In this document: piece by piece, positions 20,991-38,609 of the stretch
How the letters are laid out: each line of letters opens with the position of its first letter
Numbering within the stretch: the stretch's first letter is position 1
NCBI RefSeq assembly: GCF_014762705.1
Contig: NZ_JABURL010000119.1
Location: 1-64,000 of the forward strand
From: Cyclobacterium sp.
Lineage (GTDB): Bacteria > Bacteroidota > Bacteroidia > Cytophagales > Cyclobacteriaceae
Length of the DNA: 64,000 bases
Reading direction: 5' to 3'
The notes under the pieces: model-generated
The model's database searches: none
What the model was told of the DNA's origin: nothing
What the model saw: only the letters and a program-made list of their open reading frames with translations
Translations under genes and position numbers: made by a program

Positions 20991-22340
20991 ATGATAAAAT
21001 CTGTTTTTTTTCTAACGCTGACGCTATGCCTCTCGGTAATTGAGGTAAAGGCGCAGCTCATCTTTGAAAAGGATGAATACGCCTACCGCAGGGAGAAGCT
21101 TATGGATAATATTCCTGATGGAATTGCCATCATCCGGGGTGCATCCGAACCTCTGGGCGATACGCCTTTTAGCCAATACAACAACATGATGTATTTTGCC
21201 GGGGTTGAAATTCCCGATGCCATTCTTATCGTGGATGGAGAAAGGCGGGAAAGTGCTCTGTTTTTCACTATCAGTGAGCAGTATGCCGAAGGGGAAAATA
21301 TACCCCTTGACCTGGTCAGGGAGCCTGTAAAAGTTACCGGAATTGAAAACTATTTTCCCTACGAAGATTTTTCTGAAACGCTAAAGGACAGATTAAAGCG
21401 CAGTACGGTAATTTATACGCCCTTCAGTCCGGAGGAATATATAGGCGAAAATTCCATGGAAAAATACAACAAATTCAGGCGTTCCGTAACCGAAAATGAA
21501 TGGGATGGCAGGCTAACCCGGGAAATGCAATTCGTGGCCGTTTTAAACCAGCGATTCCCAGACAATCAGGTGTTGAATTGTACACCATTTATATGGGAAC
21601 TGCGAAAGATCAAGTCCAAAGCTGAAATTGATGTACTGCGTCAGGCAGCCCAACTTTCTGTCGAAGCACACAAAGCAGTCATAAGAAATACCAGGCCGGG
21701 TGTGGAGGAGGTAAAACTGGCCGCCCTTTTCCAGCAGGTTTGCATGTCCGGCGGGGCAAAAGGATTGGCATTCGGGACCATTATCATGTCGGATAAAAAC
21801 CATGCCTATGGTCATTACATGCAATATGACCGCACATTGCAGGAAGAGGACTTTATCATTCTGGATGGTGGTGCCAATGTGGGGTATTATGCATCAGACG
21901 TTTCAACCACCTTTCCGGCAAGTGGAAAATTCACCGAAACACAGCGGGAAATTTACGAGCTGGGTCTTTTTATAAGGGAAATATGCCAGAGCCTTTACCG
22001 GCCGGGGATTTCTTTGACAGAGATCGGTGCGGTAGTGAAAGGAGAGCTTGAAAAATTGGGTTTTGACACCACCGATCCCCGGTTTAAGTTATGGATTCGG
22101 GACGGCGGATTCAACCATAGCATTGGCATGGCCGTGCATGACAGGATGCTTGACTTCGACCGTGGAGAACCGCTGAAACCCGGGTTTGTCTTTGCCTGTG
22201 ATATTATGGGAAAAGCGGACGAGGTAACCGGTATACGGATCGAAGACACCGTGGTGATCACTGAAGATGGCTTTGAAATCCTGTCAGCAGGTTTGCCCCG
22301 GACCATTGATGAAATTGAAGCATTCATGAAGAACAACTGA
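20991..22340 (+). CDS. Secreted M24 metallopeptidase (Xaa-Pro aminopeptidase-like)
   Basis: A 449-residue exported M24 enzyme; the ATG at 20991 gives the signal SVFFLTLTLCLSVIEVKAQ. Residues to about 160 form a creatinase-type N-domain, followed by the pita-bread catalytic domain. Metal ligands are visible as LDGG and SDVSTTF (two Asp), NHSIGMAVHD (His) and IRIEDTVVIT (last Glu). The usual fourth ligand, Glu in the TIEPG phrase, is replaced by Asp404 in VFACDIMGK. The family removes N-terminal residues preceding proline. Here it would process peptides from a glycoprotein substrate, and it is the first of six peptidase genes. The next gene begins 29 bp after it. Confidence 0.9.
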   Translation: MIKSVFFLTLTLCLSVIEVKAQLIFEKDEYAYRREKLMDNIPDGIAIIRGASEPLGDTPFSQYNNMMYFAGVEIPDAILIVDGERRESALFFTISEQYAEGENIPLDLVREPVKVTGIENYFPYEDFSETLKDRLKRSTVIYTPFSPEEYIGENSMEKYNKFRRSVTENEWDGRLTREMQFVAVLNQRFPDNQVLNCTPFIWELRKIKSKAEIDVLRQAAQLSVEAHKAVIRNTRPGVEEVKLAALFQQVCMSGGAKGLAFGTIIMSDKNHAYGHYMQYDRTLQEEDFIILDGGANVGYYASDVSTTFPASGKFTETQREIYELGLFIREICQSLYRPGISLTEIGAVVKGELEKLGFDTTDPRFKLWIRDGGFNHSIGMAVHDRMLDFDRGEPLKPGFVFACDIMGKADEVTGIRIEDTVVITEDGFEILSAGLPRTIDEIEAFMKNN

Positions 22341-22369
22341 TACAAAACCCCATTTAATTCTCCACTACC

Positions 22370-24508
22370 ATGAAGCATACTTTTGTTTTATTTTTTTTAA
22401 TAGTCGTTCATTCGGGTCTTTTTGCACAACAGATGGATATTTATCAAAGGCCGGTTACCCTCGAACCGGACAGGGATTTCGATGCCCTACATTACAGCAT
22501 AAAACTGGATATCGATGTGGAGGGGAAGCAATTGAAGGGACAAAACACGGTTACCCTGACACCGCTCAGAAGTGATCTGAACAAGGTCAGCCTGGATGCG
22601 GAATCCCTGCTTGTAAGCGATGTGCTCGACAGTAAGGGTTTTCCCCTTGCTTTTACACAGGGCGAAGACAAAGTCCATATTTACCTTTCCCGCACGTATT
22701 CCTACTCAGACACCCTCACTTTTACGATAAAGTACAATCTCTCCAAACAAGTACCAGGCCTGAAGTTTATAGATCAAACGGAAACCAACCCCTTGCAGGT
22801 TTCTTCCGATTGCTGGCCCAACAAAGCCAGGCAATGGATTCCCTGTTATGACTATCCCCATGACAAAGTAACACAGGAAATGATCGTCACCGTTGACAGT
22901 GCCTACAAGGTATTGTCAAATGGTAAGCTAATGCGCATTACGGAAGACCAGGAGAGGGGAAAACATACCTACCATTGGAAACAAAGCCTGCCACACTCCA
23001 CCTATCTCACAAACCTTAGCATTGCAGATTATACGGTCATCGAAGATTCTCTGGACGCGCTACCGGTAAACTATTGGGTATATGAAAGGCATGAGAAGGA
23101 CGCAAAAAGATCATTTGCCAAGACACCTTATATGATTGATTTTTTTAACCAGCTATATGGCTATGCCTATCCCTGGGAAAAATATGACCAGGTGGTCTCT
23201 GCGCATCAGGGAGGGGGAGCCGAAGCCACGTCGGCAACCCTACTTGGAGAAGGGGCCGTAACTACTGTAGCCGAAGCAATCGACTTTTCTTTTGAAGGTA
23301 TTCTCGCTCATGAGGTGGCGCATCAGTGGTGGGGAGACCTGGTTACACTCAGAAGCTGGGAGCATTCCTGGATAAATGAAAGTTTTGCCACCTATTCCGA
23401 CTACCTGTACAAAAGATACGACTGGGGTGAAGATGAGGCGGCATATGACTTGCTGCGTAAAAAGAACGCCTACCTGCGCGAAGCGAATAACAGGTATATG
23501 CGACCCATTGTCTTTAACCGGTATGAAAATCCGGGACAGAATTTTGACAGCCATGCCTATCCCAAGGGGGCCAATGTCTTGCACATGCTTCGGTTTGTTT
23601 TGGGTGATGACACTTTTTTCAGGGTGATCAGTCAGTTTCTGCATCAATACGAATTTCAGGCAGTTAGCACCCAGGATTTTATGCGATGTGTGAAAGAAGT
23701 CAGTGGCCTGAATATGGATTTGTTTTTCGAGCAATTCCTGTTTCATCCGGGACATGCTGTATTTGAGGTCAGCAAAAACTGGGACGAATCAACCAGGACG
23801 CTCGTGTTGGAAATAAAACAAACGCAGGATAAGTGGGAGGATGTGCCCATTTACACGATTCCAGTCAACATTGGATTTTACCACAAGGAGGGAAAGACGA
23901 TTGAAAAAGTTGCATTGAAAGATCCTGTGGAGAAATTTACATTTAAATTCGATGCGGAACCATTGATGGTTCGTTTTGATGAGGGTAACCACCTGCTTAA
24001 AGAATGGACCTATCCTAAAAGCGAGGAAGAGTTAATGTTTCAGGTGAAAAACGATGATGTACCCGGCAGATTATGGGCCATTGACCAACTTAAGGCCTTT
24101 AGCAGCTCTCCGAAAACGATTCAGAAATGGACCGATCTCGCCACAAACGATCCCTTTTGGGCCGTTCGGGAAGCTGCCGTTCAGTACCTGTCTGAATTCC
24201 ATGAAAGCGGTAGTAAAGCTATTTTCTTACAGACCATTGGTGACAGCAATTCAAAAGTCAGAGCAGCATCCGTAAAGGCATTGGGGAGATCCAAAGATCC
24301 TGGAATGCTACCTGATTTCAAGGGAATATATGAAATGGATGACAGCTTTCTGGTAAGGGCGGAGGCACTTATAGCCATCGGGGCAAATGGCAATGCGTCC
24401 CATCTAAAATTTCTCAATGAAGCCGCAAAAGTCAGGTCGCCTCGCAATACATTAAAAAATGCTGCGGAGCAGGCGATTGAGCTTATTCGTGATTCGAACG
24501 GTAAATAA
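22370..24508 (+). CDS. Secreted M1-family zinc aminopeptidase with C-terminal helical repeats
   Basis: A 712-residue gluzincin. The signal ends SGLFAQ. An N-terminal beta domain leads to the zinc motif HEVAH (His314, Glu315, His318) with Glu337 in WINESFATY as third ligand. The substrate-amine loop reads GGGAEAT in place of the textbook GAMEN, keeping the Glu but not the Asn. After about residue 545 comes an alpha-helical region with HEAT-like repeats (DPFWAVREAAVQYLSEF, DSNSKVRAASVKALG, DDSFLVRAEALIAIG). It follows the M24 gene closely and is followed by paired hairpin repeats whose first copy overlaps its stop codon. Confidence 0.92.
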   Translation: MKHTFVLFFLIVVHSGLFAQQMDIYQRPVTLEPDRDFDALHYSIKLDIDVEGKQLKGQNTVTLTPLRSDLNKVSLDAESLLVSDVLDSKGFPLAFTQGEDKVHIYLSRTYSYSDTLTFTIKYNLSKQVPGLKFIDQTETNPLQVSSDCWPNKARQWIPCYDYPHDKVTQEMIVTVDSAYKVLSNGKLMRITEDQERGKHTYHWKQSLPHSTYLTNLSIADYTVIEDSLDALPVNYWVYERHEKDAKRSFAKTPYMIDFFNQLYGYAYPWEKYDQVVSAHQGGGAEATSATLLGEGAVTTVAEAIDFSFEGILAHEVAHQWWGDLVTLRSWEHSWINESFATYSDYLYKRYDWGEDEAAYDLLRKKNAYLREANNRYMRPIVFNRYENPGQNFDSHAYPKGANVLHMLRFVLGDDTFFRVISQFLHQYEFQAVSTQDFMRCVKEVSGLNMDLFFEQFLFHPGHAVFEVSKNWDESTRTLVLEIKQTQDKWEDVPIYTIPVNIGFYHKEGKTIEKVALKDPVEKFTFKFDAEPLMVRFDEGNHLLKEWTYPKSEEELMFQVKNDDVPGRLWAIDQLKAFSSSPKTIQKWTDLATNDPFWAVREAAVQYLSEFHESGSKAIFLQTIGDSNSKVRAASVKALGRSKDPGMLPDFKGIYEMDDSFLVRAEALIAIGANGNASHLKFLNEAAKVRSPRNTLKNAAEQAIELIRDSNGK

Positions 24509-24578: not shown

Positions 24579-24611
24579 TAAAATTTGGAGAATAGTAAAA
24601 ATAAAAGTCAA

Positions 24612-24766: not shown

Positions 24767-27031
24767 ATGATAATAAAAACCAGGATGAGGAAGATTAAAC
24801 AGTTAACATTGATAACAGCAATGTTCTTGTATCAGGGGTTATTATTGTCGCCTATTGCTTATTCTCAGTCAAATTTTTCCCAGTCGCATAGCAGCACTAT
24901 TGTTCCGGATAATGCGAAAGAAAGGCTGAAAGAAATTTATGAAGAGAATATTTTTTCGGTAAATTCATTCAATGGGAGCTGGCTTCCTGATGGTTCGGGG
25001 TATCTTGATCTTGAGGATTTACCCGGACAAGACACACAGGCACTTGTCCGCTATGATGTGTATAGTGGCCAGCGTACTGTTTTGTTATCGAAAGCCAACT
25101 TTGATGGTCAAGGGTATACAGGTCGTTTTAAGATCAAAAATTACGTTTTGTCTTCGGACGGGGACAGAATTCTCGTAGAATTGTCCAGTAAGGAGGAGGA
25201 TGACAGTAAGCCGGATTATTGGATGCTTGAGCGGAAGACGGGAGATCTTGAAAAGATTGTCGCCGGAACAAACAACAGTATTTCCCCTGATGGCAAGCAA
25301 ATTCTCTATGCAGAAAAGGGAGACCTTTACATGTATCACCTTGTAAATGAAAAAATCACCCAGCTAACCAATGATGCAGTTGCCCAAACGATTTCTAACG
25401 CAAGGGCTGTTTGGAGCCCCGATGGAAAAAGGATTGCATTTGTACAATCTGATGCATCGGATGTCAGAAAGAGATCCTCGCTTATTCCGGGTGATCCCTC
25501 TTATCCGGAAGTAATAGAACAACGGTTTGCCAGGGTAGGTGGAGCTATTTCCAAACTACGGGTAGGCATTTTGGACATTGAGGGAAAAGAAACGCGATGG
25601 CTTTCAATACCCATGCCAAAAGAAGGGTATTATTTGGGAGAAGTAGCCTGGGCAGGGAATTCGGAAGAAGTACTTTTAGAAAAGAGAAGCCGTTTCAGGG
25701 ACGAAAGGAAGTTTTTAATGGCTAATGTTAACAATGGTAAAGTCACTACTATTTACGAGGAAGCTGATCCGGCCTGGGTTGTAGCAAGCTACCGGACTAA
25801 TGGAGGAGTGGATTGGGTCCATGATTACAGTAATTTTATTGTTCTTTCTGAAAAAGACGGCTGGAGACATGCCTATTTGTGTTCACGTGAAGGAAAGAAA
25901 GAGGTATTGCTGACTTCTGGAGATTATGACGTCATCGGACGAGCCGGTTTGGATGAAAATAAAGGATGGTTTTACTATTATGCATCGCCTGATAATGGTA
26001 CCCAAAAGTATTTGTATCGGACTCGAATTGACGGGAAAGGAAAAGCTGAACGGATAACACCGATGGATCAACCAGGGACTCATACCTACAACATCTCCCC
26101 TGATGGCCAATGGGCCTTTCATACCTACTCCACGGCAAATACACCTCCGGTAACTGAGCTTGTCAGCCTACCGGATCATAAAGTTGAGCGTGTACTTGAG
26201 GAGAATGATGAGCTGCATGGAAGAATTAAGGAACTGGATTTCCAGCCAAAGGAATTCTTCAACCTTGATATCGGCAATGGTGTGGTTATGGATGCATGGA
26301 TGATCAAACCCCGGGATTTTGATCCTTCCAAGAAATACCCTGTATTTGTTTATGTTTATGGCGAACCTCATGGGCAAACAGTAATGGATTCCTGGGGACA
26401 TGCCATGACTGATTTTCATCGTGTTATCGCCGATCTTGGTTATCTGGTAGTATCCATTGACAACCGCGGCACGCCATGTCCCAAAGGAGCAGCCTGGCGC
26501 AGGGCAGTTGCAGGAAGTTTGGGGCCGTTGTCTACCGAAGAGCAGGCTGCAGGTTTACAAGAATTGGGCCGGACCTACAACTATGGTGACCTTGACCGCG
26601 TGGGCATCTGGGGCTGGAGCGGAGGAGGATCAAATACCCTTAATGCGATGTTCCGTAAACCGGAATTATATAAAGTGGGAATAGCTGTTGCCCCTAAACC
26701 CCAACCACAGCTTTACAATGCCTGGTTTCAGGAGATATATATGAACACTCCTGAAGTCAATCCTGAAGGATATCGGGAGTCGGCTCCAATTAACTTCGCA
26801 GAGGGACTAAAGGGAGATTTGCTGATAATCCATGGAACAGGGGAAACCAATACGCATATTGAAATTACCGAGGGACTGGTTGATCGCCTCATCGAATTGG
26901 GGAAGCCCTTTGATTACATGGCTTATCCCAATAGAGACCATGGTCTGAATGAAGGGAAAGGAACTCCTGTGCATATGAGGCTTCATCTTTTGAGGTATTT
27001 GCTTTCGCATTTGCCGCCAGGTGGCCGCTAA
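24767..27031 (+). CDS. Secreted S9 prolyl oligopeptidase / DPP IV-type peptidase
   Basis: A 754-residue S9 peptidase with a signal peptide ending SPIAYSQ. Residues about 60-480 form the beta-propeller with WSPDGKRIAF-type blades; the C-terminal part is the alpha/beta hydrolase. The nucleophile is Ser618 in GWSGGG and the histidine is His725 in NRDHGL. Where dipeptidyl peptidase IV has the catalytic Asp (HGTADDN), this protein has Glu693 in HGTGETNTH. I recall that phrase from a wider S9 subgroup, so it is likely a subfamily trait rather than damage. Expected role: removal of dipeptides or cleavage after proline in peptides released from the substrate. Confidence 0.92.
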   Translation: MIIKTRMRKIKQLTLITAMFLYQGLLLSPIAYSQSNFSQSHSSTIVPDNAKERLKEIYEENIFSVNSFNGSWLPDGSGYLDLEDLPGQDTQALVRYDVYSGQRTVLLSKANFDGQGYTGRFKIKNYVLSSDGDRILVELSSKEEDDSKPDYWMLERKTGDLEKIVAGTNNSISPDGKQILYAEKGDLYMYHLVNEKITQLTNDAVAQTISNARAVWSPDGKRIAFVQSDASDVRKRSSLIPGDPSYPEVIEQRFARVGGAISKLRVGILDIEGKETRWLSIPMPKEGYYLGEVAWAGNSEEVLLEKRSRFRDERKFLMANVNNGKVTTIYEEADPAWVVASYRTNGGVDWVHDYSNFIVLSEKDGWRHAYLCSREGKKEVLLTSGDYDVIGRAGLDENKGWFYYYASPDNGTQKYLYRTRIDGKGKAERITPMDQPGTHTYNISPDGQWAFHTYSTANTPPVTELVSLPDHKVERVLEENDELHGRIKELDFQPKEFFNLDIGNGVVMDAWMIKPRDFDPSKKYPVFVYVYGEPHGQTVMDSWGHAMTDFHRVIADLGYLVVSIDNRGTPCPKGAAWRRAVAGSLGPLSTEEQAAGLQELGRTYNYGDLDRVGIWGWSGGGSNTLNAMFRKPELYKVGIAVAPKPQPQLYNAWFQEIYMNTPEVNPEGYRESAPINFAEGLKGDLLIIHGTGETNTHIEITEGLVDRLIELGKPFDYMAYPNRDHGLNEGKGTPVHMRLHLLRYLLSHLPPGGR

Positions 27032-27112
27032 ACCTCAAAAAGGATGTTTTAATCAATAATTCCCCTTAAGCGAGGTCCGCAATTGTTGCGTCTAACGAAG
27101 GAAAGAAAATAT

Positions 27113-29308
27113 ATGAATTCAAAACTATTTACCGAGAAACCTCCCATTACAGGCATCTTACTTTGTATTCTGTTTATTTTGATTGCAATACCTACAATGG
27201 GTCAGGGGCCGGTAGGCTATGTGGAATGCAAAATGGAGGAAACTTTTGAAGAACCCACCAATGTTGCTTTTGGCAGTGATGGGAATTACAAATACCTGTT
27301 TAATCAGGTGGGGCCGATGGTTTTTTCTCGGGGACAGTTTTTTGGAGGGCCGAGTTCGGCAAAAGTGGAAAAAGCATGGTACCAAACCATTAGTGAAATG
27401 GATGTGGAGGGGCCATCTGCCAAACTTGCCCAAGCCTTTGCCAGGTTAAAAAAGCATTTGACCGGTGAATCAGTGCTTAGCCCGGATCAGATAATGGAGC
27501 AGGACACCATTATTCAGGCCAATATTTCAGCGATCGGGATAAAGAAAGAAATCATTGAGCAGTCCTTTGATCTGATAAGGACCTATGAGGAAACGGCAGG
27601 CCCCCTATTCGATATCCATGGAAAAAAAATAATGTTACCCCGGGAAGTACAGCCAGGTATGGAGATTCACTACGCCCTTTTTTATATCATGGATGCCATT
27701 ACCCGCAGCTACAGTGCTGCAAAACTGGAAGAATTCCCGCAGGTATATGAGGGAGCGATGTTCAAGACATCAGCTTATTTTCCGGGCAAGGTGGATCCCC
27801 CTAAAGACCAGCAAAATGTTTACCGGGTCAAGGTAAAGGCATCACAAGCCCCCAATTGGGGAACGCCCATCTATTTTCACCAGGATGCCTATTCCCGACG
27901 TCCGACTGGAGCTTATGTTGCGCCGGGCACTATTGTCAAAATAAAAGTACCATCTGCTGTTGTAAATAAGGATTACACCATTAGGGTAGGTACTCATTTT
28001 TGGGATTTAAAATATAGGAACAGAATTGCCCGGTTGGACAGGGCTACCATCATCTATCCTGTGGTAGATGAAACCATCACAGTGGGTTCTCCCCTTGGGG
28101 GGAACATTTATTTTGAAGTCCCCGAAGGAAAAGAGGATGGAATCATTGAATTGGAAATTACCGGAGCCGTACGCTCTCCTTATTTTTCGACCAGGGATTA
28201 TAACAAAATCAGCCTGAAAGAATGGAAAGAAACCGAGCGCCATTACACCGGAGCATGGGCAGACTTTGAAACCGATAAATTTCTAATGCAGGTGCCCACA
28301 AGTTGGATCGATGATTTTGATGACCCGGAGACCATGCTGAAGCAGTACGATACAGCGATGGATGCCGTTGCCGATCTCTTGGGCAAGCCATTGCCACAGG
28401 GTACCCACTTTATGTTTCGTCAGGTAGATGCGATCATGCGGGCAGGGGTTCATGCCCCGGGATATCCGGAGATCAACGTTAGGTATGACCCTACGGAAGA
28501 ATCGGACGGAAAAGGAAATCATATCATGCTGCAGCCACCAGTAAAGCAGCCCTGGGTCATTTTCCACGAAATGGGCCACTCTCATGTTCCTTCCTTTTTT
28601 GTTGACGAAACGGAATCTATTGTTAACCTCTTACATGTAGCCGTGGCAAATGACGGATTTGGTATGGAACTGGATTCGGCTTTCGGATCGTCGATAAGCA
28701 ATCGGCTTGATGTAGATCTGGACGTGGCTGCCATCAATTTAATGGTTACGGATCCATTTCGAAACAATCAACCCTTAAACAGGGACCGCATGTCGTACCA
28801 ACACCGGGGGCACGGCAAGTATGTGGATGTGGTGCGCCTATTTGGATGGGATGCCTTGGGAGACATGTTTATAAAAGTGAATGAGGACTATAACCGGGGT
28901 ATTGTCATCAAAAAGACCCATCATCCAACCGATGACAGGATTTTGCGCATGTCTGTTGCGGCAGGGGTAGACCTCCGCCCATTGCTTCACTTTTGGGGCA
29001 GGCCACCCGAAAACAATAAGGCATTGGCTGACAGCCTTGATGTGGCAGGATTAACACCTTCAAGGGAAATATTTGAGACGCTGGAACACTATAAATCCAT
29101 CCTTCCCAAAACTCTATCCGAGGCCAGGACCCATGCAAAGCTAATGTTTCCAAAAGACGGCCATCCTTCATCCGATGGGCATGACCTGGAGCGGGACATG
29201 GCCTTTATTTATAGCAGTTGGAACGAAGAATTTGCTACGCAATCGATAAAGCAAATTGAATTAATCCAAACGCTTTATTTCCCTGAAGAATGGCTTGATG
29301 GTGAATAA
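27113..29308 (+). CDS. Secreted M60-like (enhancin/mucin-type) metallopeptidase
   Basis: A 731-residue exported protein; the ATG at 27113 gives a signal ending AIPTMGQ. The catalytic region contains HEMGH (His485, Glu486, His489) followed 12 residues on by Glu501 in ETESIVNLL. This matches the M60 pattern HExxH-x(8,28)-E. The M60 family includes enhancins, SslE-like mucinases and O-glycopeptidases that cut next to glycosylated Ser/Thr. The preceding domain (about 205-400) is beta-rich with GAYVAPGTIVKIKVPS and YTIRVGTHF, like the accessory domain usually in front of M60 catalytic modules. It is the strongest pointer to a glycoprotein substrate for this island. A sulfatase gene follows after 32 bp. 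Confidence 0.88.
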   Translation: MNSKLFTEKPPITGILLCILFILIAIPTMGQGPVGYVECKMEETFEEPTNVAFGSDGNYKYLFNQVGPMVFSRGQFFGGPSSAKVEKAWYQTISEMDVEGPSAKLAQAFARLKKHLTGESVLSPDQIMEQDTIIQANISAIGIKKEIIEQSFDLIRTYEETAGPLFDIHGKKIMLPREVQPGMEIHYALFYIMDAITRSYSAAKLEEFPQVYEGAMFKTSAYFPGKVDPPKDQQNVYRVKVKASQAPNWGTPIYFHQDAYSRRPTGAYVAPGTIVKIKVPSAVVNKDYTIRVGTHFWDLKYRNRIARLDRATIIYPVVDETITVGSPLGGNIYFEVPEGKEDGIIELEITGAVRSPYFSTRDYNKISLKEWKETERHYTGAWADFETDKFLMQVPTSWIDDFDDPETMLKQYDTAMDAVADLLGKPLPQGTHFMFRQVDAIMRAGVHAPGYPEINVRYDPTEESDGKGNHIMLQPPVKQPWVIFHEMGHSHVPSFFVDETESIVNLLHVAVANDGFGMELDSAFGSSISNRLDVDLDVAAINLMVTDPFRNNQPLNRDRMSYQHRGHGKYVDVVRLFGWDALGDMFIKVNEDYNRGIVIKKTHHPTDDRILRMSVAAGVDLRPLLHFWGRPPENNKALADSLDVAGLTPSREIFETLEHYKSILPKTLSEARTHAKLMFPKDGHPSSDGHDLERDMAFIYSSWNEEFATQSIKQIELIQTLYFPEEWLDGE

Positions 29309-29340
29309 ATCAAAATAGTGGGATAACATTTTATAATAAT

Positions 29341-30777
29341 ATGGAATCATTTCACAAATTAATTTTATTCCTTTTCCTATCTATAGCGGGTATATTTTCC
29401 TGCAATCAGGTAAAAGAAAAAAGGGTAAAGCCCAATATCGTTTTCATCTTTATTGATGATATGGGATGGAAAGATGTAGGGTTTATGGGTTCAGAATATT
29501 ATGAAACACCACATATCGATCAATTGGCAAAAAAGGGTATGGTATTCACCCAGGCCTATGCCAATGCGGCCAACTGTGCGCCAACCCGCGCCTGTTTGCT
29601 TAGTGGTCAGTATTCAGCCCGGCATGGTGTTAATACCGTTGCCAGACCAGATCGTGGAGATCCGGAGGACAGGCGTTTGATCCCTATACCCAATTCCAGA
29701 ACGGTGCCACTTGAGCATGTGATGATTTCAGAAGCTTTAAAACCTGCAGGGTACCGGTCTGCAGCAATAGGGAAATGGAATGTAGGAAATTCTCCTGAAA
29801 AACAAGGTTTTGATTTGGGCATACCCGGGTCAGGATTTCAAGGCCATTTCAATGAGGAAGGAGAATATCTTACGGACCATTTGACGGAAAAGGCAGTAAA
29901 ATTTATCAAAGAAAACAATCCGCAAAAAACAGGAAATCCTTTTTTTCTTTACCTGGCCCATTATGCGGTTCATACACCCATACAGGCAAAAGACAGTCTG
30001 GTTCAAAAGTACCAGGAAAAGCAGGGAACCCCGTATCACAATAATTCCACCTATGCAGCCATGATCGAAAGTGTGGATCAAAGTGTGGCTAAAATAAATG
30101 GAATATTGGAGGAGCTCGGCTTGGTTGAAAACACCTTGCTGGTCTTCTTTTCAGACAATGGTGGACATGGAACCTATACGAGCCAAAAACCTTTGCGTGG
30201 AGGAAAGGGAATGTTTTATGAAGGAGGTATTCGGGAACCCATGTTTGCTTACTGGCCGGGTAAAATAAAAGCGGGAACAGTATGCCAGGAGCCCGTTATC
30301 GGCATCGACTTTTACCCGACTTTTCTGGAGCTTTCCGGTGTGGAAAAACCAATAGGTTATGTGTTGGACGGCCGGAGTATTGTCCCTTTGTTAAATGGAG
30401 AAAAAACCCTAAACCGGGAGGCACTTTTTTGGCATTTCCCTGCCTACTTGCAATCCTATGAGGGAATGAAAAAGGAGTCACGGGATACGCTTTTCAGATC
30501 AAGGCCGGTGAGTGTAATAAGGAAAGGAGATTGGAAGTTATTACAGTTTCACGAAGAGTGGGTGCTTGATGGCGGTCGGGAGAATTTGATGGAGAACAAT
30601 GCCGTTGAATTATATAACCTTGCGACTGACATTGGTGAAACGAAGAACCTATCAGCCGTCGAAACTGATAAACGAGATGAGTTACTTGACGATCTTATAA
30701 ACTGGCAAGAGGAGATTGATGCGCCGATTCCCAGCGAAGCAAATCCAAAATATGTAGCAAAGGGCAAAGGAAAGTAA
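29341..30777 (+). CDS. S1-family sulfatase 5, lipoprotein, with altered GKWH motif
   Basis: A 478-residue sulfatase with a lipoprotein signal ending AGIFSC (Cys21). It keeps IDDMGWKD, the maturation motif CAPTR (Cys79) and SDNGGHG. The active-site motif usually written GKWHLG reads GKWNVG, with Lys145 kept and Asn147 in the position of a catalytic histidine. Everything else looks intact, so either the activity is altered or the subgroup uses another residue. The gene is wedged between the M60 and HEIGH metallopeptidase genes with gaps of 32 and 61 bp, tying desulfation to proteolysis in one probable operon. Confidence 0.92.
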   Translation: MESFHKLILFLFLSIAGIFSCNQVKEKRVKPNIVFIFIDDMGWKDVGFMGSEYYETPHIDQLAKKGMVFTQAYANAANCAPTRACLLSGQYSARHGVNTVARPDRGDPEDRRLIPIPNSRTVPLEHVMISEALKPAGYRSAAIGKWNVGNSPEKQGFDLGIPGSGFQGHFNEEGEYLTDHLTEKAVKFIKENNPQKTGNPFFLYLAHYAVHTPIQAKDSLVQKYQEKQGTPYHNNSTYAAMIESVDQSVAKINGILEELGLVENTLLVFFSDNGGHGTYTSQKPLRGGKGMFYEGGIREPMFAYWPGKIKAGTVCQEPVIGIDFYPTFLELSGVEKPIGYVLDGRSIVPLLNGEKTLNREALFWHFPAYLQSYEGMKKESRDTLFRSRPVSVIRKGDWKLLQFHEEWVLDGGRENLMENNAVELYNLATDIGETKNLSAVETDKRDELLDDLINWQEEIDAPIPSEANPKYVAKGKGK

Positions 30778-30838: not shown

Positions 30839-32872
30839 ATGAAAAGCATTTATTTCTTATTTATCATTTCCTTGATCTTTGTCTCGTTTAATACTTTCGG
30901 ACAGGAGATTTTCAATGACAGTCTACAGAACGATGTAAATCAGGTTACTGAGAAACTGGTCACGAAATATGGAGATGAAAATGCTGAACGCATCGGTCGT
31001 GGTGTCAGGCACCTTTCTGATCTTTGGTTTGAAGAAAACGGTGATGGGCTTGAATTTCAGGAGTTCTGCATGAAACAGTTTATCCCTTCCGGTCCCGAGC
31101 TTGATCATGCGCTGCTTATTGCTGAACAACAATTTAGTGCCATCAATGGGTATCAGAGGGAACTCTCCCTTGCACTCGATTACCCATTGGTAACAATGAC
31201 AAGACCTATCACTGAGCTCGACAGATTATTCAGCGATTCAAAAATTACGATTGATTTTTTCAAAAGTAAACTTGCCCTCGCCATCGCACTTAATTTCCCT
31301 TATTACACCAATGAAGAAAAGGAAGCATTTGGGCCAAACTGGAGTCGGAAAAAGTGGGCAATGGTAAGATTGGGAGATAAATTTGATTTTAGGTCCGATC
31401 CGGATAAGGAGCCCGACTCCATGCCGATTCCCGATGAGCTTCGTGATTACACCACCCGCTACATTCTTTCAATGGACCACGTGTTATCACCCGAACATAA
31501 AATTCTTTTTCCTGAAGGTACCCGGTTAAACAGCCATAATGGACTAAGGGATGAAATCAAAGGGCTCTACTTTAGGGATAACCCGTTGGAAAAGCAGCGA
31601 GTAATAAGTGCAATAGTGATGCATATCATCCATCAAACCATACCCGAATGCATGGTAGGAGAAACTTCTTATTATTGGGAACCCATAGCCAATAAGGTGT
31701 ATCTGAAAGAAGGAGAAAACTTTATAGAAACAGATTTTAAGGCGGAACCTGATAATAGGTACAAAGTTTTACATCACAACATGTTATCGAAGATGCAACA
31801 GGATGCCAAATATCCTGAAGGATCAACCTATTTGACCCGAACCTTTAAAAACGGTCAACTCAGTGAAGAAAAAATTGTCTCCTTGCTGGAATCAGTTTTA
31901 AGCGCTGCAGAAAAGAAAGCCGTAGCGGCCTTGATTGAAAAAAAGATTGGGAGAAAGTTAGAACCCTTCGATATTTGGTACAACGGATTCAGCGACAATA
32001 CCAATTACAAAATGGATGAACTGGATCAGCTGATCAAAGAAAAATATCCTACACCGATGGCATTCCAGCAAGATCTGCCCAACATCCTCAAAAGAATTGG
32101 TTTTCCGGATTTTGAAGCCGATTTTTTTGGCAATCACGTGGTTGTTGATCCAATTCCCTCCGGAGGACATGCCAATGGACCTCAAATGAAAGGCGCTAAA
32201 GCACATTTGCGTATCCGTTTTGAAAAGGATGGCCTAGATTACAAGAATTACAGGGTAGGCATGCATGAAATCGGCCATACCATTCAGCAGAATGTAGGCA
32301 CTTACATGTCGGATTATTATTTACTGAAAGGCATCCCAGGCAGCCCCTATACAGAAGCCATGGCAGATCTTATTGCTTACCGCAACTTGATTGCCTTAGG
32401 AGTAAATCAGGAATACAGCGCCCGGGAAAAGCAGGATAATGCATTGGCTGCATTTTGGTTTGTTTGTGAAATGGGATCGGAAGCGCTCCACGAGATCAGG
32501 GTTTGGCATTGGCTGTATGAGCATCCGGATGCTACTGTTGACGAGCTTAAGGCTGCAACCATTACTATTGCGAAGGATATCTGGAACCAGTATTTTGCAG
32601 AAATTTTTGGTGTGAGAGATGTCCCAATCTTAGCCATTTATAATCATTTCATTTCCGGAGCGCTCTATTTGCACAGTTATCCCATTGGAAATATAGTCGT
32701 CATGCAATTGGAAGAGCAGTTCGAGGGAAAGGATTTTGCAACAGAAATGATACGAACATGCAAAATCGGTAAGCTTACACCCGATCTGTGGATGATAAAA
32801 GCAACCGGTGAACCTTTAAGTTCCAGGCCATTATTGACTGCCATGCGAAATGCGCTTGAAGCATATAAATAG
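30839..32872 (+). CDS. Secreted HEIGH metallopeptidase, M3-like gluzincin of uncertain family
   Basis: A 677-residue exported protein (signal ending FNTFGQ) that is mainly alpha-helical by composition. The zinc motif is HEIGH (His476, Glu477, His480) with Glu506 in PYTEAMADL 26 residues after the second His, the spacing seen in M3-type oligopeptidases. Sequence between the motifs and outside them does not resemble the M3 members I know, so I keep the family open. The motif GGHANGPQMKGAKAHLR upstream may shape the active-site cleft, as in related gluzincins. The neighbours are peptidases and a sulfatase, which suggests oligopeptide trimming. Confidence 0.75.
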   Translation: MKSIYFLFIISLIFVSFNTFGQEIFNDSLQNDVNQVTEKLVTKYGDENAERIGRGVRHLSDLWFEENGDGLEFQEFCMKQFIPSGPELDHALLIAEQQFSAINGYQRELSLALDYPLVTMTRPITELDRLFSDSKITIDFFKSKLALAIALNFPYYTNEEKEAFGPNWSRKKWAMVRLGDKFDFRSDPDKEPDSMPIPDELRDYTTRYILSMDHVLSPEHKILFPEGTRLNSHNGLRDEIKGLYFRDNPLEKQRVISAIVMHIIHQTIPECMVGETSYYWEPIANKVYLKEGENFIETDFKAEPDNRYKVLHHNMLSKMQQDAKYPEGSTYLTRTFKNGQLSEEKIVSLLESVLSAAEKKAVAALIEKKIGRKLEPFDIWYNGFSDNTNYKMDELDQLIKEKYPTPMAFQQDLPNILKRIGFPDFEADFFGNHVVVDPIPSGGHANGPQMKGAKAHLRIRFEKDGLDYKNYRVGMHEIGHTIQQNVGTYMSDYYLLKGIPGSPYTEAMADLIAYRNLIALGVNQEYSAREKQDNALAAFWFVCEMGSEALHEIRVWHWLYEHPDATVDELKAATITIAKDIWNQYFAEIFGVRDVPILAIYNHFISGALYLHSYPIGNIVVMQLEEQFEGKDFATEMIRTCKIGKLTPDLWMIKATGEPLSSRPLLTAMRNALEAYK

Positions 32873-32942: not shown

Positions 32943-34448
32943 ATGTGTAATAAAACCGGCAAATTTCTCTATCAACTAATTTCCCCTTTTCTTTTACTAC
33001 TCGTTTGCGTTACTTCTGTGCATGCCCAAAAGAGTACGTTACCGGCAGACACTACTATTGTCTCTTCTGATGAAGTGACCGTTAATGGGAAAAGAATATC
33101 CTATCAGGTGACGGTAGGCACGCAGCCGGTATACGGTGCAGATGGAGCACCTGATGCAGCAGTGTTTTATACCTATTACAAGCGAAGTGATGTCGATCAG
33201 GTAGAAAATCGACCCATTGCATTCTCATTCAATGGAGGGCCGGGAGCTGCATCGTTGTGGATGCATTTGGGTTATACAAGTCCGAAACGGCTGGAAATAA
33301 GTGATGAGGGATATCCCATACAACCCTATGGTATCGTAGATAACCCGCATTCAATTATAGATGTAGCCGACATCGTATATGTTGATCCGGTTAATACGGG
33401 TTTTTCACGCATATTGAATGACGGCAAGCGTGAAGATTTTTTTGGGGTGTATCAGGACATTACCTACCTGGCTGACTGGATTGACAATTTCCTATCACGG
33501 CAAGGACGTTGGAGATCCCCAAAATATCTGATTGGGGAGAGTTATTCGGCAACACGCGTAGCGGGTTTATCAGGTGAACTGCAAGACATGCATGGGATTT
33601 ACCTCAACGGAGTAGTTATTGTTTCCGGGACTAAAATGGAACTACCTATCTCAAGTAATGAAGTACTTCAATTACCTAACTACACGGCGGTAGCATGGTA
33701 TCACAATAAGCTACCTGAAGATTTACAGAAAAAAGATCTTACTGAAATTCTCTCAGAAGTTGAAAAGTACGCCATCGAGGAATATTTACCTGCAGTCGAA
33801 AGAGGGGGATTTATCGATGAAGATCAGAAACAAGCCGTTGCAGAAAAAGTAGCCCGGTACACCGGTCTCAAAAAGGAATTCATATTGGACCACAACCTGA
33901 CAGTCCCCACTAAAGCGTTCAGAAAAGAGTTACTAAGGGATGAAGGATATTTCCTGGGTTTTTCTGATGCACGGTATAAGGGTATTGATAAAATGGATGC
34001 TGGCGATACCTTTACCGGAAGTACTCCACCTGAGTCAGCTGCCTGGGATAATGCCTTCATGCCTGCCATTAATACGTATCTTCGAAAGGATTTAAATTTT
34101 AAAACAGACCTGCAATACCTTGTTTCTGGTCCTGTATTTCCCTGGCCATGGGATAGATTTACTGATGGGACAGGAGAGAAATTGCGTAATGCCATGATGC
34201 AAAACCCCAAACTTGAAGTATTATTTCAAGCAGGATATTACGATATGTTGGTCAATTATTTTAGACAAAAAAATGGTATGTGGAAGCTTGATCCAAGCGG
34301 TAAAATGAAAGACCGTTTACATTTTAAAGTGTATGAAAGTGGTCACATGATGTATGTGAGGGAGGAAGATTTGGTAAAGTCTACCAATGATCTCCGGGAG
34401 TTTATTCAACAAACAATCCCCATGAAAGGTGAACCGGCAAAGTATTGA
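32943..34448 (+). CDS. Secreted S10 serine carboxypeptidase-like protein
   Basis: A 501-residue alpha/beta hydrolase of the S10 family with a signal ending SVHAQ. It shows the oxyanion segment FSFNGGPGAASLW, DVADIVYVDPVNTGFS, and the nucleophile Ser200 in GESYSATR. Asp434 in QAGYYDML and His468 in ESGHMMY complete the triad. S10 enzymes remove C-terminal residues, generally at acidic pH. As such it complements the aminopeptidases upstream. It is the last peptidase of the series, 70 bp after the HEIGH peptidase. Confidence 0.92.
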   Translation: MCNKTGKFLYQLISPFLLLLVCVTSVHAQKSTLPADTTIVSSDEVTVNGKRISYQVTVGTQPVYGADGAPDAAVFYTYYKRSDVDQVENRPIAFSFNGGPGAASLWMHLGYTSPKRLEISDEGYPIQPYGIVDNPHSIIDVADIVYVDPVNTGFSRILNDGKREDFFGVYQDITYLADWIDNFLSRQGRWRSPKYLIGESYSATRVAGLSGELQDMHGIYLNGVVIVSGTKMELPISSNEVLQLPNYTAVAWYHNKLPEDLQKKDLTEILSEVEKYAIEEYLPAVERGGFIDEDQKQAVAEKVARYTGLKKEFILDHNLTVPTKAFRKELLRDEGYFLGFSDARYKGIDKMDAGDTFTGSTPPESAAWDNAFMPAINTYLRKDLNFKTDLQYLVSGPVFPWPWDRFTDGTGEKLRNAMMQNPKLEVLFQAGYYDMLVNYFRQKNGMWKLDPSGKMKDRLHFKVYESGHMMYVREEDLVKSTNDLREFIQQTIPMKGEPAKY

Positions 34449-34571: not shown

Positions 34572-37013
34572 ATGAGTCGTTTACAATTAAGGTTACCAAA
34601 AGTAATTTGCCTTTGCTGTTCAGTATTCCTTTTGTTACTATTTTCCTGCCAGGAAGCCTCCGTAGAGCAGCCTGATTGTGGATTATGCGCGGAAACGGGC
34701 GCGGAGTGGATTCAGGATGAAAAGCCCCTTCCGGCTTACGATTCGCTTTTTTATGAAGACAGGCCAGCACCCATATTCAGAAAGGAATTTTCGGTGGCTA
34801 CAGAAATAGACAGCGCCATTCTATACATCACTGCCGCGGGATATTATAAAGCCTCTATCAATGGAGACAGCATTGGGAACAGGGTGCTGGATCCTGCATG
34901 GACGGATTACAGTAAAAGAATATATTATTCCCGGTATGCCCTTACCGATAAAATTCGGCAGGGGGAAAATTGCCTGGGTGTGACCCTGGGGAATGGGTTT
35001 TATAATCCACTGCCCTTGAGAAAATGGGGAAGGAGAAACCCCCGGGTAGACCTTACGGTTGGCAAGCCCACTTTTATGGCGAGGCTTGTAATCTATTATC
35101 CAAACGGGGAAATAAATGAAGTAAAAACAGACGCTTCCTGGACCTACGGATACGGCCCCCTGGTGAAAAACAGTGTCTACATTGGTGCCGTGTACGACCA
35201 GGGAAAGCAAATGGAAGGATGGGACCTGCCTGGCTTTAAGCCCGAATCCTGGCAAGCTGCCCAGGTGGGAGAAGGCCCTGGGGGTGAGCTACAACCCGCC
35301 TTTTTTCCTCCTGTCCGGATCATGGAGGAAATCCAACCCAAGGCCGTTTCTACCCTTTCCAATGGAAAACACATGGTGGACATGGGAGTAAATTTTACGG
35401 GGACCTATAGGATAAGAATTCCTCCCCATGCGGGGGATACCATTACCTTTAGGTTTGGAGAACGGGTGTACGAAGATGGAACACTGAATCCGATGACCAC
35501 TGTAGTAGGGCAAATCAAGCGGGAGGGTATAGGAGGCCCGGGTGCCCCTCCCGTAGCCTGGCAAACGGATAGTTATATTTCAGGTAATAAAGAGGCCTTT
35601 TTTACACCGGATTTTGTCTACAGAACTTACCGCTACATGGAGATAGACGGCTTAAAAGAGCAGCCCGCCCTGGCTGATGTGCAGGGCTTGTTTATCTATT
35701 CAGACGTTCCGGATAAAAATAATTTTACCAGTTCAAATGCCTTGCTCAATGATATTCAGGATGCCGTAAAAAGGACTTTTCTTTCCAATTTGGTAAGTGT
35801 GCAATCTGACTGTGCCGTCAGGGAGAAATTTGGATATGGGGGAGATCTCAATGCGACGAACGAATCCTTTATTTACAATTTTGACATGCAGGATTTTTAC
35901 ACAAAAACGGTTTATGATTGGGTGGATGCCATGAATGATTCGACTTTTGTGGATACGGCTCCCTATGCCGGCATCAAGTATTGTGGTATCAGCTGGGAAT
36001 CTGCCTACCTGATTACCCAGTATTACCTGTATTTGTATTACAACGATACGGATCTGGTGGAGGAGTTGTATGAGCGAAACCTGCAATGGATGGAAAAAGT
36101 GGCCAGGATCCATCCGGATGGATTGGTAGAAAGTGGCCTGAGTGACCATGAGTCCCTGGAGCCCGTGCCGGTACAATTGACAGGTACCGCCCATTACCTG
36201 CAATGTGCCCGCATCATGAAAACATTTGCTGCTGTCATGGAAGATGGAGAAAACGAGCGGCATTTCGAAGCACTGTCGGTAAGCTTGAAAAACCGGATCA
36301 AAGCAGCTTTTTGGGATCAGCCTGTAGAAGAACCGATAAACAGACAAACCCTGTTTTCCACGCTGCTTTACCACGATATCATTCCCGATCAGGAATTGGA
36401 AGCAGCAAGAGATTCCTTGTTGAAGGCTGTTTACAATGGCCCTTCAGGTCATTTTAACACAGGAATTTTTGGAACCAAGTACATCCTGGAGACCCTTTCC
36501 GGGCATGCCCCTATCAACAGGGTATTCGATATTGTAAACAGTACCGATTATCCGGGATGGGGCCATATGATCGATAGAGGAGCGACAAGCATTTGGGAAA
36601 CCTGGAAGGAGAGTGACAACACTTTTACCAATAGTCATCCGATGTTTGGTACGGTGACCGAGTGGTTTTATCGCTGGCTGGGTGGAATCCGACCGGACCC
36701 CCAAAATCCCGGATTTAAGGTATTTGTACTGGCACCCAGAGTGCCCGATGAGTTGGATTCCATAGCCAGCAACTACCATTCACCCCATGGTGAAATCATA
36801 TCTAATTGGAAAAAAGGGCTAGATGGGTCCATCACCTATGAAATAAAAATCCCCAATGGCAGTACCGCAAAGGTCTCTTTGTTGATGCGAACTGCTCAAA
36901 GCTTGTCAATTGAGAAAAGGGAGGGAGATTTTAATCCGGAAAACGTGAAGGGTTTGGCAACCGGCAATTTTGAACTGGAAGAAGGTGAATATACCATTCG
37001 CATTTCCAGCTAA
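34572..37013 (+). CDS. GH78 alpha-L-rhamnosidase-like lipoprotein
   Basis: An 813-residue predicted lipoprotein (signal ending LLLLFSC, Cys26). N-terminal beta domains contain the family phrases YYKASINGDSIGNRVLDPAWTDY and YSRYALTD. The (alpha/alpha)6 barrel follows from about residue 390, with the acidic block DCAVREKFGYGGD (Asp425) and, later, RGATSIWETW, NSHPMFGTVTEWFYRWLGGI, and a C-terminal beta domain. These are hallmarks of glycoside hydrolase family 78 and related rhamnosidases. It is the only intact classical glycoside hydrolase in the island, implying a rhamnose- or related deoxysugar-containing glycan. Exact specificity is not readable. Confidence 0.88.
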   Translation: MSRLQLRLPKVICLCCSVFLLLLFSCQEASVEQPDCGLCAETGAEWIQDEKPLPAYDSLFYEDRPAPIFRKEFSVATEIDSAILYITAAGYYKASINGDSIGNRVLDPAWTDYSKRIYYSRYALTDKIRQGENCLGVTLGNGFYNPLPLRKWGRRNPRVDLTVGKPTFMARLVIYYPNGEINEVKTDASWTYGYGPLVKNSVYIGAVYDQGKQMEGWDLPGFKPESWQAAQVGEGPGGELQPAFFPPVRIMEEIQPKAVSTLSNGKHMVDMGVNFTGTYRIRIPPHAGDTITFRFGERVYEDGTLNPMTTVVGQIKREGIGGPGAPPVAWQTDSYISGNKEAFFTPDFVYRTYRYMEIDGLKEQPALADVQGLFIYSDVPDKNNFTSSNALLNDIQDAVKRTFLSNLVSVQSDCAVREKFGYGGDLNATNESFIYNFDMQDFYTKTVYDWVDAMNDSTFVDTAPYAGIKYCGISWESAYLITQYYLYLYYNDTDLVEELYERNLQWMEKVARIHPDGLVESGLSDHESLEPVPVQLTGTAHYLQCARIMKTFAAVMEDGENERHFEALSVSLKNRIKAAFWDQPVEEPINRQTLFSTLLYHDIIPDQELEAARDSLLKAVYNGPSGHFNTGIFGTKYILETLSGHAPINRVFDIVNSTDYPGWGHMIDRGATSIWETWKESDNTFTNSHPMFGTVTEWFYRWLGGIRPDPQNPGFKVFVLAPRVPDELDSIASNYHSPHGEIISNWKKGLDGSITYEIKIPNGSTAKVSLLMRTAQSLSIEKREGDFNPENVKGLATGNFELEEGEYTIRISS

Positions 37014-37160
37014 TGGATTTTAATGATATTGTCATTTTTGCATACTTGAGATCGGTTTAAGTAGGATAACTTACCTTGAAATCGATCTCTTCTCAGGTGA
37101 AAATCTAAATTAAAACTTAAAAATATAGTCATTTATCAAGTAATAGAAAATTGAATAAGC

Positions 37161-38609
37161 ATGAATTTAAAATTGAAAACCAGCATTCCCCTGGTGATTT
37201 TGCAAAGCTGGTTGATTTTTTCCTGCGGTGACCCTGTCGAAAAAAAGCAAACGGATTACCGCCCAACCAACGTTTTGTTGATCACAGCAGATGACCTGAA
37301 TTACAATTCAGTGGGAGTGTACGGTTGTACGGTACCTGATATTACCCCAAACCTGGACAAGCTGGCCCGAGAGGGCATGCGTTTTACCAATGCATTTGTG
37401 AATATTGCCGTTTGCCAACCCTCCCGCCAATCCATCATGACGGGCAGGTATCCGCATACCAATGGTGCACTGGCCTTCGATCCCATAGATAAGGCTGTTC
37501 CTACCCTGCAGGAGCAACTTACAAGGGCAGGATACCTGAATGGGATTTTGGGAAAAGAAATACACCTGAAACCTACAGAAAAATTCAATTGGGATTATTA
37601 CATCCGGGAGGGGGACCTTTCCTCAGGACTTGGAATCGGCAGAGATCCGGATCTGTATTACCAGCATGCGCTGGAATTTTTCAACAAATCCAAAAAGGAA
37701 GACAAGCCCTTTTTTCTGATGGCCAATAGCCATGACCCCCACCGCCCTTTTGCCGACAGCGAACAGGAGAAGCGTATATGGGGAGAAGACCTCCCTGTCT
37801 TTACCCGAAAAATCACACCGGAAGAAGTTACCGTACCTGCTTTTCTTCCCGATCTGCCGGAGGTCAGGTTGGAAATTGCCGAGTACTACACCTCGGTATA
37901 CAGGTTGGATCAGACAGTCGGTGCGATCATGAGCGCACTGGAGGACTCAGGACTTGGGGACAATACCCTGGTGATGTTTATCAGCGATAACGGCATGGCA
38001 TTGCCCTTTGCCAAATCGAATTGTTACCTGAACAGCAACAAAACCCCCTGGATCGTAAATTGGCCGGGTGTGATCCCTGAAGGAAAAGTGGATAGTACCC
38101 ATTTTATTTCAGGAATTGATTATATGCCTACTGTTCTTCACGCACTTCACTTACCGGTAGTACCGGATATGGATGGAACTTCTTTCCTACCGGTGCTGCA
38201 GGGAAAGACCCAACAAAACAGGACCAGGGTATTCACTGAATTTCACCGCATTTTCGCGGGCATTGATTATTCCATGCGCTGTGTACAGGAGGGGGATTAT
38301 GGATACATCGTGAATTTCTGGAGCGATGGGGAGCACAAGATCCGCGGTGATGCAGCCAGCGGCAGGACCTATTCCGCCATGGTGGACGCGGCTCCTCAGG
38401 ATGAATCCGTGGCCGAACGCCTGAAGATGTACGAGTACCGGGTTCCTGAAGAGCTATATGATTTTTCTAAGGACCCCGATGGACTCCACAACCTGATGGC
38501 TGATCCGGCTTACCAGGAAATCGCCGACGGGTTGAAGGCCCGGCTTCTCAGGGAAATGAAACGCACCGATGATCATTTGGCGGGTGATTTTGAGGAGGGG
38601 TTTTTATGA
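37161..38609 (+). CDS. S1-family sulfatase 6, heparan N-sulfatase-like, lipoprotein
   Basis: A 482-residue sulfatase with lipoprotein signal ending LIFSC (Cys22). It has ITADDLNYNSVGVYG, the maturation motif CQPSR (Cys85), NSHDPHRPF and ISDNGMALPFAKSN. The lysine/histidine motif is spread as GKEIHLKP instead of GKWHLG. These features, especially the aspartate-asparagine segment ending in AKSN, recall the N-sulfoglucosamine sulfohydrolase-like branch, which would suit a glycosaminoglycan-like substrate. I am sure of the sulfatase fold and less sure of the branch. The repeat region begins 9 bp after its stop. Confidence 0.92.
   Translation: MNLKLKTSIPLVILQSWLIFSCGDPVEKKQTDYRPTNVLLITADDLNYNSVGVYGCTVPDITPNLDKLAREGMRFTNAFVNIAVCQPSRQSIMTGRYPHTNGALAFDPIDKAVPTLQEQLTRAGYLNGILGKEIHLKPTEKFNWDYYIREGDLSSGLGIGRDPDLYYQHALEFFNKSKKEDKPFFLMANSHDPHRPFADSEQEKRIWGEDLPVFTRKITPEEVTVPAFLPDLPEVRLEIAEYYTSVYRLDQTVGAIMSALEDSGLGDNTLVMFISDNGMALPFAKSNCYLNSNKTPWIVNWPGVIPEGKVDSTHFISGIDYMPTVLHALHLPVVPDMDGTSFLPVLQGKTQQNRTRVFTEFHRIFAGIDYSMRCVQEGDYGYIVNFWSDGEHKIRGDAASGRTYSAMVDAAPQDESVAERLKMYEYRVPEELYDFSKDPDGLHNLMADPAYQEIADGLKARLLREMKRTDDHLAGDFEEGFL

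Follow-up and report, generated by a model that had tools for sequence, protein, structure and literature searches.

Gene content of the locus

The window analysed here, the whole 64,000-nucleotide stretch of a Cyclobacterium sp. contig (NZ_JABURL010000119.1, positions 1 to 64,000), carries adjacent susC and susD genes accompanied by degradative enzymes, the arrangement that marks a SusCD-type utilisation locus. Six sulfatases, six peptidases and a GH78 alpha-L-rhamnosidase lie around them (Table 1), and we lean towards reading the region from about 5 to 40 kb as a SusCD-based locus for the use of sulfated, rhamnose-bearing glycopeptides. At its core, nine genes follow one another on the plus strand as described in the original prediction, which took them for a sulfated-glycoprotein degradation system: M24, M1, S9 and M60 peptidases, a sulfatase (Sulf5), the HEIGH protein (HEIGH677), an S10 peptidase, GH78 and a further sulfatase (Sulf6). 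Active-site motifs and Pfam bear out these assignments (E-values of 1e-40 for M24, PF00557; 3.4e-39 for M1; 1.2e-50 for S9/DPPIV_N; 5.5e-15 for M60; 5.1e-59 for Sulf5; 3e-12 for S10; 4.3e-59 for GH78; and 2.2e-42 for Sulf6), HEIGH677 being the sole block gene without a Pfam match. The eight intergenic gaps from M24 to Sulf6 measure 29, 258, 51, 32, 61, 70, 123 and 147 bp. The system is bigger than this block: Sulf1 to Sulf4, a TauE/SafE-family protein, SusCD, and the DUF1080 and DUF3863 proteins sit upstream, a gap of 599 bp separating DUF3863 from M24, and a DHDPS-family enzyme and a sodium:solute symporter follow downstream.

Table 1. Features of the locus in window coordinates, and the number of the 13 related loci in which each was called present
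Feature	Coordinates	Strand	Loci (of 13)	Remarks
unk573	2830..4551	+		signal-like N-terminus; nothing significant in Pfam, NCBIfam or PDB; relatives show linkage to HEIGH677, S9 or sulfatases
Sulf1	5006..6427	+		sulfatase; lipoprotein-like signal; CSPSR
Sulf2	6494..8146	+		sulfatase; CCPTR
TauE/SafE-family membrane protein	8601..9488	+
Sulf3	9395..10936	+		sulfatase; CTPSR; true start probably 3' of TauE stop
SusC-type TonB-dependent transporter	11138..14557	+	12	cut by contig end in G425
SusD-type lipoprotein	14569..16296	+	13 (by choice)	anchor for comparing the 13 loci
DUF1080 / 3-keto-disaccharide hydrolase domain	16525..17217	+
Sulf4	17303..18718	+		sulfatase; CAPSR
DUF3863+DUF3864 protein	18829..20331	+	9 (near-whole)	PDB relative 3lm3, named just 'uncharacterized protein'
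Terminator-like hairpin, DUF3863/M24 gap	20447..20465	+		pattern only
M24	20991..22340	+	10	Xaa-Pro aminopeptidase type
M1 aminopeptidase with HEAT repeats	22370..24508	+	10
S9	24767..27031	+	9	dipeptidyl peptidase IV type
M60-like metallopeptidase	27083..29308	+	5	no sugar-binding domain by Pfam
Sulf5	29341..30777	+	4 (whole)	sulfatase; lipoprotein-like signal; CAPTR
HEIGH677	30839..32872	+	10	HExxH protein; signal-like N-terminus
S10 serine carboxypeptidase	32943..34448	+	11
GH78 alpha-L-rhamnosidase	34572..37013	+	11	lipoprotein-like signal
Sulf6	37161..38609	+	10	sulfatase; lipoprotein-like signal; CQPSR
DHDPS-family enzyme	39149..40075	+		best solved relative by profile: L-2-keto-3-deoxyarabonate dehydratase
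Sodium:solute symporter	40660..42438	+		possibly part of the system; present in 2 of the 12 relatives over the stretch covered

Conservation with SusCD in related genomes

The 13 loci compared are the window and 12 genomes with the same SusD: six Cyclobacterium (G292, G295, G297, G298, G299 and G301), three genomes of genus g132 (G317, G376 and G411), and one each of g143 (G386), g3 (G091) and g170 (G425). A gene was called present at about 80% coverage and at least 55% identity, matches below 55% being dropped; the counts are lower bounds, some contigs ending early, and those for G317, G376 and G411 are summed over several contigs. SusD is accompanied by S10 and GH78, each in 11 loci, and by an M24-M1 cassette in 10 genomes; M60 is present in 5 loci and Sulf5 whole in 4.

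The M24-M1 cassette lies on SusCD's own contig stretch in 8 of its 10 genomes. Its gene order recurs in four other genera (g132, g143, g3 and g14), and M24-M1 accompany the same SusCD in four (g1, g3, g132 and g143), as does S10 in three (g1, g132 and g143); M24-M1-S9 are contiguous in five genomes of three genera (the window, G386, G411, G317 and G376). Among 196 genomes of the family, taken as one draw and with at most five M1 and seven SusD candidates scored per genome, close relatives of M1 (at least 76% identity) occur in 10 and of SusD (at least 71%) in 11, with 9 shared (Fisher p 5.6e-13, a value that ignores the relatedness of the genomes). The mismatches are G299 and G425, with SusD and no M1, and G259, with M1 and not the same SusD; G295 and G301 hold SusD yet fall outside the family-search matches, presumably not having been drawn.

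In G297 and G298, Sulf5 has decayed to a remnant of 79-86 residues and DUF3863 is likewise a remnant, while M24, M1, M60, HEIGH677 and S10 around them are whole and the other sulfatases remain. Among the alignments used, A1 omits the G295 copy, which spans two stretches, A4 the G301 fragment, and A5 the near-duplicate G759 and 7 of the 10 Cyclobacterium and g132 copies.

Active sites of the peptidases

For M24 the ATG at the signal peptide (20991) is a more likely start than that of the mechanical open reading frame (20931). Its nearest PDB entries are Xaa-Pro aminopeptidases (3ig4, E 3.5e-41), and the Glu of the EPG motif, which we take to be a metal ligand, aligns with Asp, the sequence FACDIMG occurring in all eight sequences checked. 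M1 carries HEVAHQWWGD...NESFA. The structure nearest to S9 is a bacterial dipeptidyl peptidase IV (DPP-IV; 5olj, E 7.7e-80); the window copy has both GWSGGG and DHG, and GWSGGG with HG is kept in 9 of 9 sequences. The S10 motifs GESY and GH are kept in 11 of 11. Two proline-type exopeptidases together, M24 of Xaa-Pro aminopeptidase type and S9 of DPP-IV type, would suggest Pro-rich peptides as their substrate.

The M60 protein scores 56.1 bits against Peptidase_M60 (PF13402, cut-off 25.8), also matches M60-like_N, and keeps HEMGHx9E in 5 of 5 sequences; at E 0.001 Pfam finds just these two domains, and neither CBM32 nor BACON. Close relatives (83-91% identity) occur in C. roseum, C. salsum, C. 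plantarum and Cyclobacterium sp. SYSU L10401. The five loci with M60 are all Cyclobacterium; close relatives occur in 5 of 12 genomes of the genus, and 290 other genomes of the order yielded just three weak partial matches (26-32% identity). M60 is thus lineage-restricted; it can no longer serve as the key enzyme that the original prediction saw in it, and the same figures rule it out as a mucin diagnostic for the system.

The window S9 is 81% identical to that of G386, 73-75% to the g132 copies and 74-76% to other Cyclobacterium; the window unk573 is 82-83% identical to g132 copies and 76-77% to other Cyclobacterium. S9 and unk573 are paired on the opposite strand in G297, G298 and G299; in the window they lie apart, S9 following M1 as in g143 and g132, and in the three g132 genomes unk573 adjoins HEIGH677. 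In unrooted trees of both proteins the branch that bears the other Cyclobacterium copies is long (about 0.21). We considered whether S9 and unk573 had been acquired from a different genus and did not conclude so, faster change in the other Cyclobacterium explaining the identities equally well.

Predicted location and regulatory patterns

By eye, all six peptidases have ordinary signal peptides. A pattern scan finds Cys boxes in M24 (LTLC), M60 (ILLC, with none at the signal end) and S10 (LLVC); we did not count these as lipoboxes because each is embedded in the hydrophobic core and is followed by further signal sequence. Sulf1, Sulf5, Sulf6 and GH78 have a Cys box at the signal end, as does SusD (YSC, missed by the pattern). 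Pfam detects no type IX secretion (T9SS) C-terminal sorting domain in the nine block proteins. Given ordinary signals and no sorting domain, the peptidases would most plausibly be periplasmic, acting after import through SusCD. This departs from the earlier scheme of stepwise removal of sulfate, sugar and peptide, which finds no support in the form given.

Scans for regulatory patterns were of little help: the Bacteroidota promoter consensus has three plus-strand matches in the 64 kb, none of them in block gaps; a sigma-70 scan of 20-40 kb was uninformative (45 found versus 37.1 expected); and terminator-like sites, at 34 versus 22.5 expected, are a weak pattern. Pfam matches of the proteins scanned at 2.8-42 kb include no regulator.

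HEIGH677, a dispersed HExxH family

HEIGH677 has relatives in 18 other genomes (19 of the 395 phylum genomes sampled, its own included). Distant relatives are 33-39% identical (14 aligned), and all 17 sequences compared share H476, E477, H480 and E506. We compared the neighbours of distant HEIGH677 genes (7-20 kb, in 15 of the 18 distant genomes, G1062, G950 and G871 left out) with the window proteins by blastp and found no relative except one aminotransferase at 29%.

The protein had been called M3-like. The spacing of HExxH...TEA is reminiscent of M2/M3, a likeness not confirmed by Pfam. No search here returned an M3 match, including an M3 profile run on the 17 members up to E 10 (a limit at which filters drop most matches above 0.1). 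Nor was there a significant match in Pfam, NCBIfam (window member only) or PDB (phmmer and profile); weak Reprolysin_3 matches occur in 7 of 17 members (best E 0.012). Membership in M49 (dipeptidyl peptidase III) was rejected, the motif being HExxH rather than HExxxH and Pfam giving no M49 match; hhalign against two M49-family proteins likewise gave nothing significant, with a probability of 0.3% to one of them. Predicted structures were uninformative (mean pLDDT 38 for HEIGH677 and 31 for unk573). HEIGH677 is a broadly spread HExxH family with no significant match to a named family in the libraries searched, and one of its branches sits in this locus.

Interpretation of the locus

The observations from which we start are which genes are present and how they are arranged, their active-site motifs (M24 having one altered metal ligand), and their joint conservation with SusCD; from these we infer where the enzymes would be located, that they would be active and in what order, and that both moieties would belong to one substrate. 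Because the peptidases and sulfatases are found together with the rhamnosidase and SusCD across several genera, a substrate bearing peptide and sulfated sugar would be the simplest reading, and to this extent the sulfated-glycoprotein locus of the original prediction stands, shorn of its M60 role and its stepwise scheme. SusCD would carry fragments that still bear peptide through the outer membrane; sulfate and rhamnose would be stripped by lipoprotein sulfatases and by the GH78 rhamnosidase; periplasmic M24, S9, M1, S10, HEIGH677 and, in some strains, M60 would trim the peptide; and the sugars would pass to cytoplasmic enzymes such as the DHDPS-family protein. That the peptidases are kept whole where Sulf5 has decayed, in G297 and G298, counts for this glycopeptide reading.

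Several points weigh against it: i) G299 has SusD without M24 and Sulf5 and with a 9% remnant of M1, G301 has SusD without M24, M1, M60 and Sulf5, and G425 has no peptidase of the window's kinds on its 14.8 kb contig; ii) among the g132 genomes, M24-M1-S9 are linked to SusCD only in G411 and lie on separate contigs in G317 and G376, and HEIGH677 is linked only in G317, 20-24 kb away; iii) in G259, TauE-M24-M1 stand without the same SusCD; iv) the Glu-to-Asp change at the presumed metal ligand makes M24 activity uncertain; v) the proposed locations depend on signals judged by eye, with Cys boxes in M24, M60 and S10; vi) the S10 and HEIGH677 families are not dedicated to glycoproteins, because S10 relatives occur in 159 of 390 genomes of the order (mostly at 49-58% identity, some near 40%) and distant HEIGH677 loci, one aminotransferase apart, lack relatives of the window genes; and vii) no surface endoprotease is evident, leaving the first cut of the protein unexplained. 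From the losses in G299 and G301 and the Sulf5 remnants it follows that the locus can do without the peptidases and without Sulf5, and any strict stepwise scheme is the weaker for it. The original prediction had also named homologous loci with peptidases and sulfatases unlinked as telling against it, and such unlinking is found in part: in G297 and G298 the peptidases sit beside a Sulf5 remnant, but the other sulfatases stay; and G259, where the nearest recognised sulfatase is 7.7 kb from TauE-M24-M1, counts toward unlinking.

The G299, G301 and G425 loci would also suit an ordinary locus for a sulfated, rhamnose-containing polysaccharide, in which the glycan is the nutrient that SusCD recognises and the peptidases clear cell-wall-linked or trapped peptide: behind the same SusD in G425 come GH78, sulfatases, and GH106-like and GH127-like genes, and G301 and G299 retain SusCD, GH78 and sulfatases without whole M24 and M1. 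SusC/SusD clusters, moreover, track mostly glycan substrates, as far as the available text of one survey goes (PMC6298971). We regard this alternative as unlikely, if still a serious contender: M24-M1 stay with the same SusCD in four genera and S10 in three, and they are whole beside a decayed sulfatase in G297 and G298. It is quite improbable, on the other hand, that two independent neighbours have been run together here, one a locus for sulfated glycan that stops at the hairpin behind DUF3863, the other an operon for scavenging peptides that starts with M24. Such a division would account for the hairpin (a pattern whose weakness was noted above), for the long gap between the halves, and for G259, where a serine dehydratase adjoins M1; however, the halves are interleaved, S10 standing directly after DUF3863 in G317, G376, G386 and G411 and GH78 and Sulf6 lying behind the window peptidases, and M1 and SusD co-occur far too often.

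The sugar side and possible substrates

GH78 is the only glycosidase of the window. A system specific to hydroxyproline-rich or arabinogalactan proteins would be expected to have an arabinofuranosidase or galactanase for hydroxyproline-linked glycans next to its peptidases; GH127 and GH2 were not among the window proteins scanned with Pfam, and some relatives have them. Judged by gene clusters, GH106 occurs in the same region in G091, G297, G298, G301, G411 and G425 (Pfam-checked in G298 and G091), GH127 occurs in G298, G301 and G425 and GH2 in G297, G298 and G299 (both checked in G298), GH123 occurs in G411 (checked), and six genomes have a SASA esterase there (checked in G299). Upstream of TauE-M24-M1 in G259, at a distance of 11-16 kb, are an FGGY kinase, a class II aldolase/epimerase and a GH101-like protein. 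The GH101-like protein (L137:4748-6337) is about 11 kb upstream and shares its region with a further SusCD pair and a protein resembling unk573 (33%). Families of these kinds serve glycoprotein or plant-type glycans, which counts for the glycopeptide reading.

A glycoprotein of arabinogalactan or extensin type would possibly account for rhamnose, arabinose, sulfate and Pro-rich peptide together. Against that substrate, GH101 and GH123 are just as much a sign of mucin-like O-glycans, and no proline racemase-family epimerase (PF05544) of hydroxyproline breakdown, which would be expected for hydroxyproline-rich glycoproteins (HRGPs) or arabinogalactan proteins (AGPs), was found in the host genome. 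The DHDPS-family protein matches L-2-keto-3-deoxyarabonate dehydratase by profile (E 2e-16), with plain DHDPS proteins next; on this match and the missing PF05544 we rejected hydroxyproline breakdown by the DHDPS gene, our first idea. In the available text of the respective sources, AGP-like fractions of Ulva contain rhamnose, arabinose and possibly rhamnose sulfate (PMC9164130), and Zostera AGPs are described as hydroxyproline-linked and, in leaf, low in rhamnose, with no sulfate reported on the AGP itself (PMC7237498). We therefore offer only tentatively, and consider rather unlikely, the fullest version of the glycopeptide reading: that this would be a dedicated import-and-digest system for sulfated, rhamnose/arabinose-decorated Pro-rich glycopeptides (arabinogalactan- or extensin-like, from algae or seagrass), with a periplasmic cassette adapted to proline (Xaa-Pro aminopeptidase, DPP-IV, M1 and S10) and an unclassified HExxH peptidase family, a type of SusCD locus in which the peptidases, and not the glycosidases, would be the defining feature.

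Comparison with known systems

The original prediction held that polysaccharide utilisation loci normally have glycosidases and no graded set of peptidases. Published loci do contain peptidases: from the accessible portions of two reports, their occurrence in SusCD loci has already been described and a glycoprotein substrate inferred (PMC6298971, PMC11992087). The mucin O-glycoprotein locus BT4240-50 of Bacteroides thetaiotaomicron likewise unites SusCD, glycosidases and an M60-like peptidase and is read as attacking protein and glycan; its M60, a surface lipoprotein, carries BACON and CBM32 and is, in the text available, the sole peptidase named (PMC11992087), whereas the Cyclobacterium M60 has neither domain in Pfam and is absent from the majority of related loci, and the window has five other peptidases besides, along with six sulfatases. 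The GH92 mannan loci of North Sea Flavobacteriia resemble ours in coming from marine Bacteroidota and in having sulfatases, SusCD and co-located peptidases, for which a glycoprotein substrate was proposed; judging from the part available, they rely on GH92-type mannosidases (PMC6298971), in contrast to a rhamnosidase here (GH78, and GH106 in relatives). GH92 is absent among the 30 window proteins scanned with Pfam. RagAB of Porphyromonas gingivalis, which is not known to come with sulfatases or rhamnosidase, is in that respect unlike the Cyclobacterium locus. As a SusCD-type complex tied to protein uptake, RagAB is alike, so far as its source is accessible (PMC11817032). For Latescibacteria, GH127, GH78, GH106, GH2, sulfatases and peptidases including M24 and S9 were proposed to act on algal HRGPs/AGPs, but as a whole-genome inventory and, in the text available, not as one SusCD locus with a conserved proline-type peptidase cassette (PMC4454575).

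Our literature searches, which left subscription papers mostly outside and so are weak evidence of absence, found nothing linking Cyclobacterium, sulfatase and polysaccharide utilization loci, nothing on DUF3863, and nothing on utilisation loci with dipeptidyl peptidase, proline, arabinogalactan and rhamnosidase; on Cyclobacterium sulfatases they gave just unrelated work, judged by listing, and on HRGPs, utilisation loci and peptidases in Bacteroidetes just the Latescibacteria study (PMC4454575). If the glycopeptide reading is true, SusCD with M24-M1-S9 would be a traceable genetic marker for the breakdown of sulfated glycoproteins of algae or seagrass, and a single SusD protein would serve to test whether marine Bacteroidota take up whole glycopeptides. 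HEIGH677 is of interest in its own right as a spread-out HExxH family without a significant match to a named one.

TauE/SafE and the sulfatases

TauE/SafE is 81-97% identical in eight relatives and 50% in G425; in G259 it lies directly upstream of M24-M1. The pairing of a sulfite-exporter role with neighbouring sulfatases, which release sulfate, is unexplained. All six window sulfatases carry C-x-P-S/T-R. Six per window is dense, yet the organism is sulfatase-rich anyway, its genome giving 70 sulfatase matches, 69 of them above cut-off and a few being fragments of a single gene; farther along the same contig lies another region dense in sulfatases, with 12 matches (G000:C20:98281-158731).

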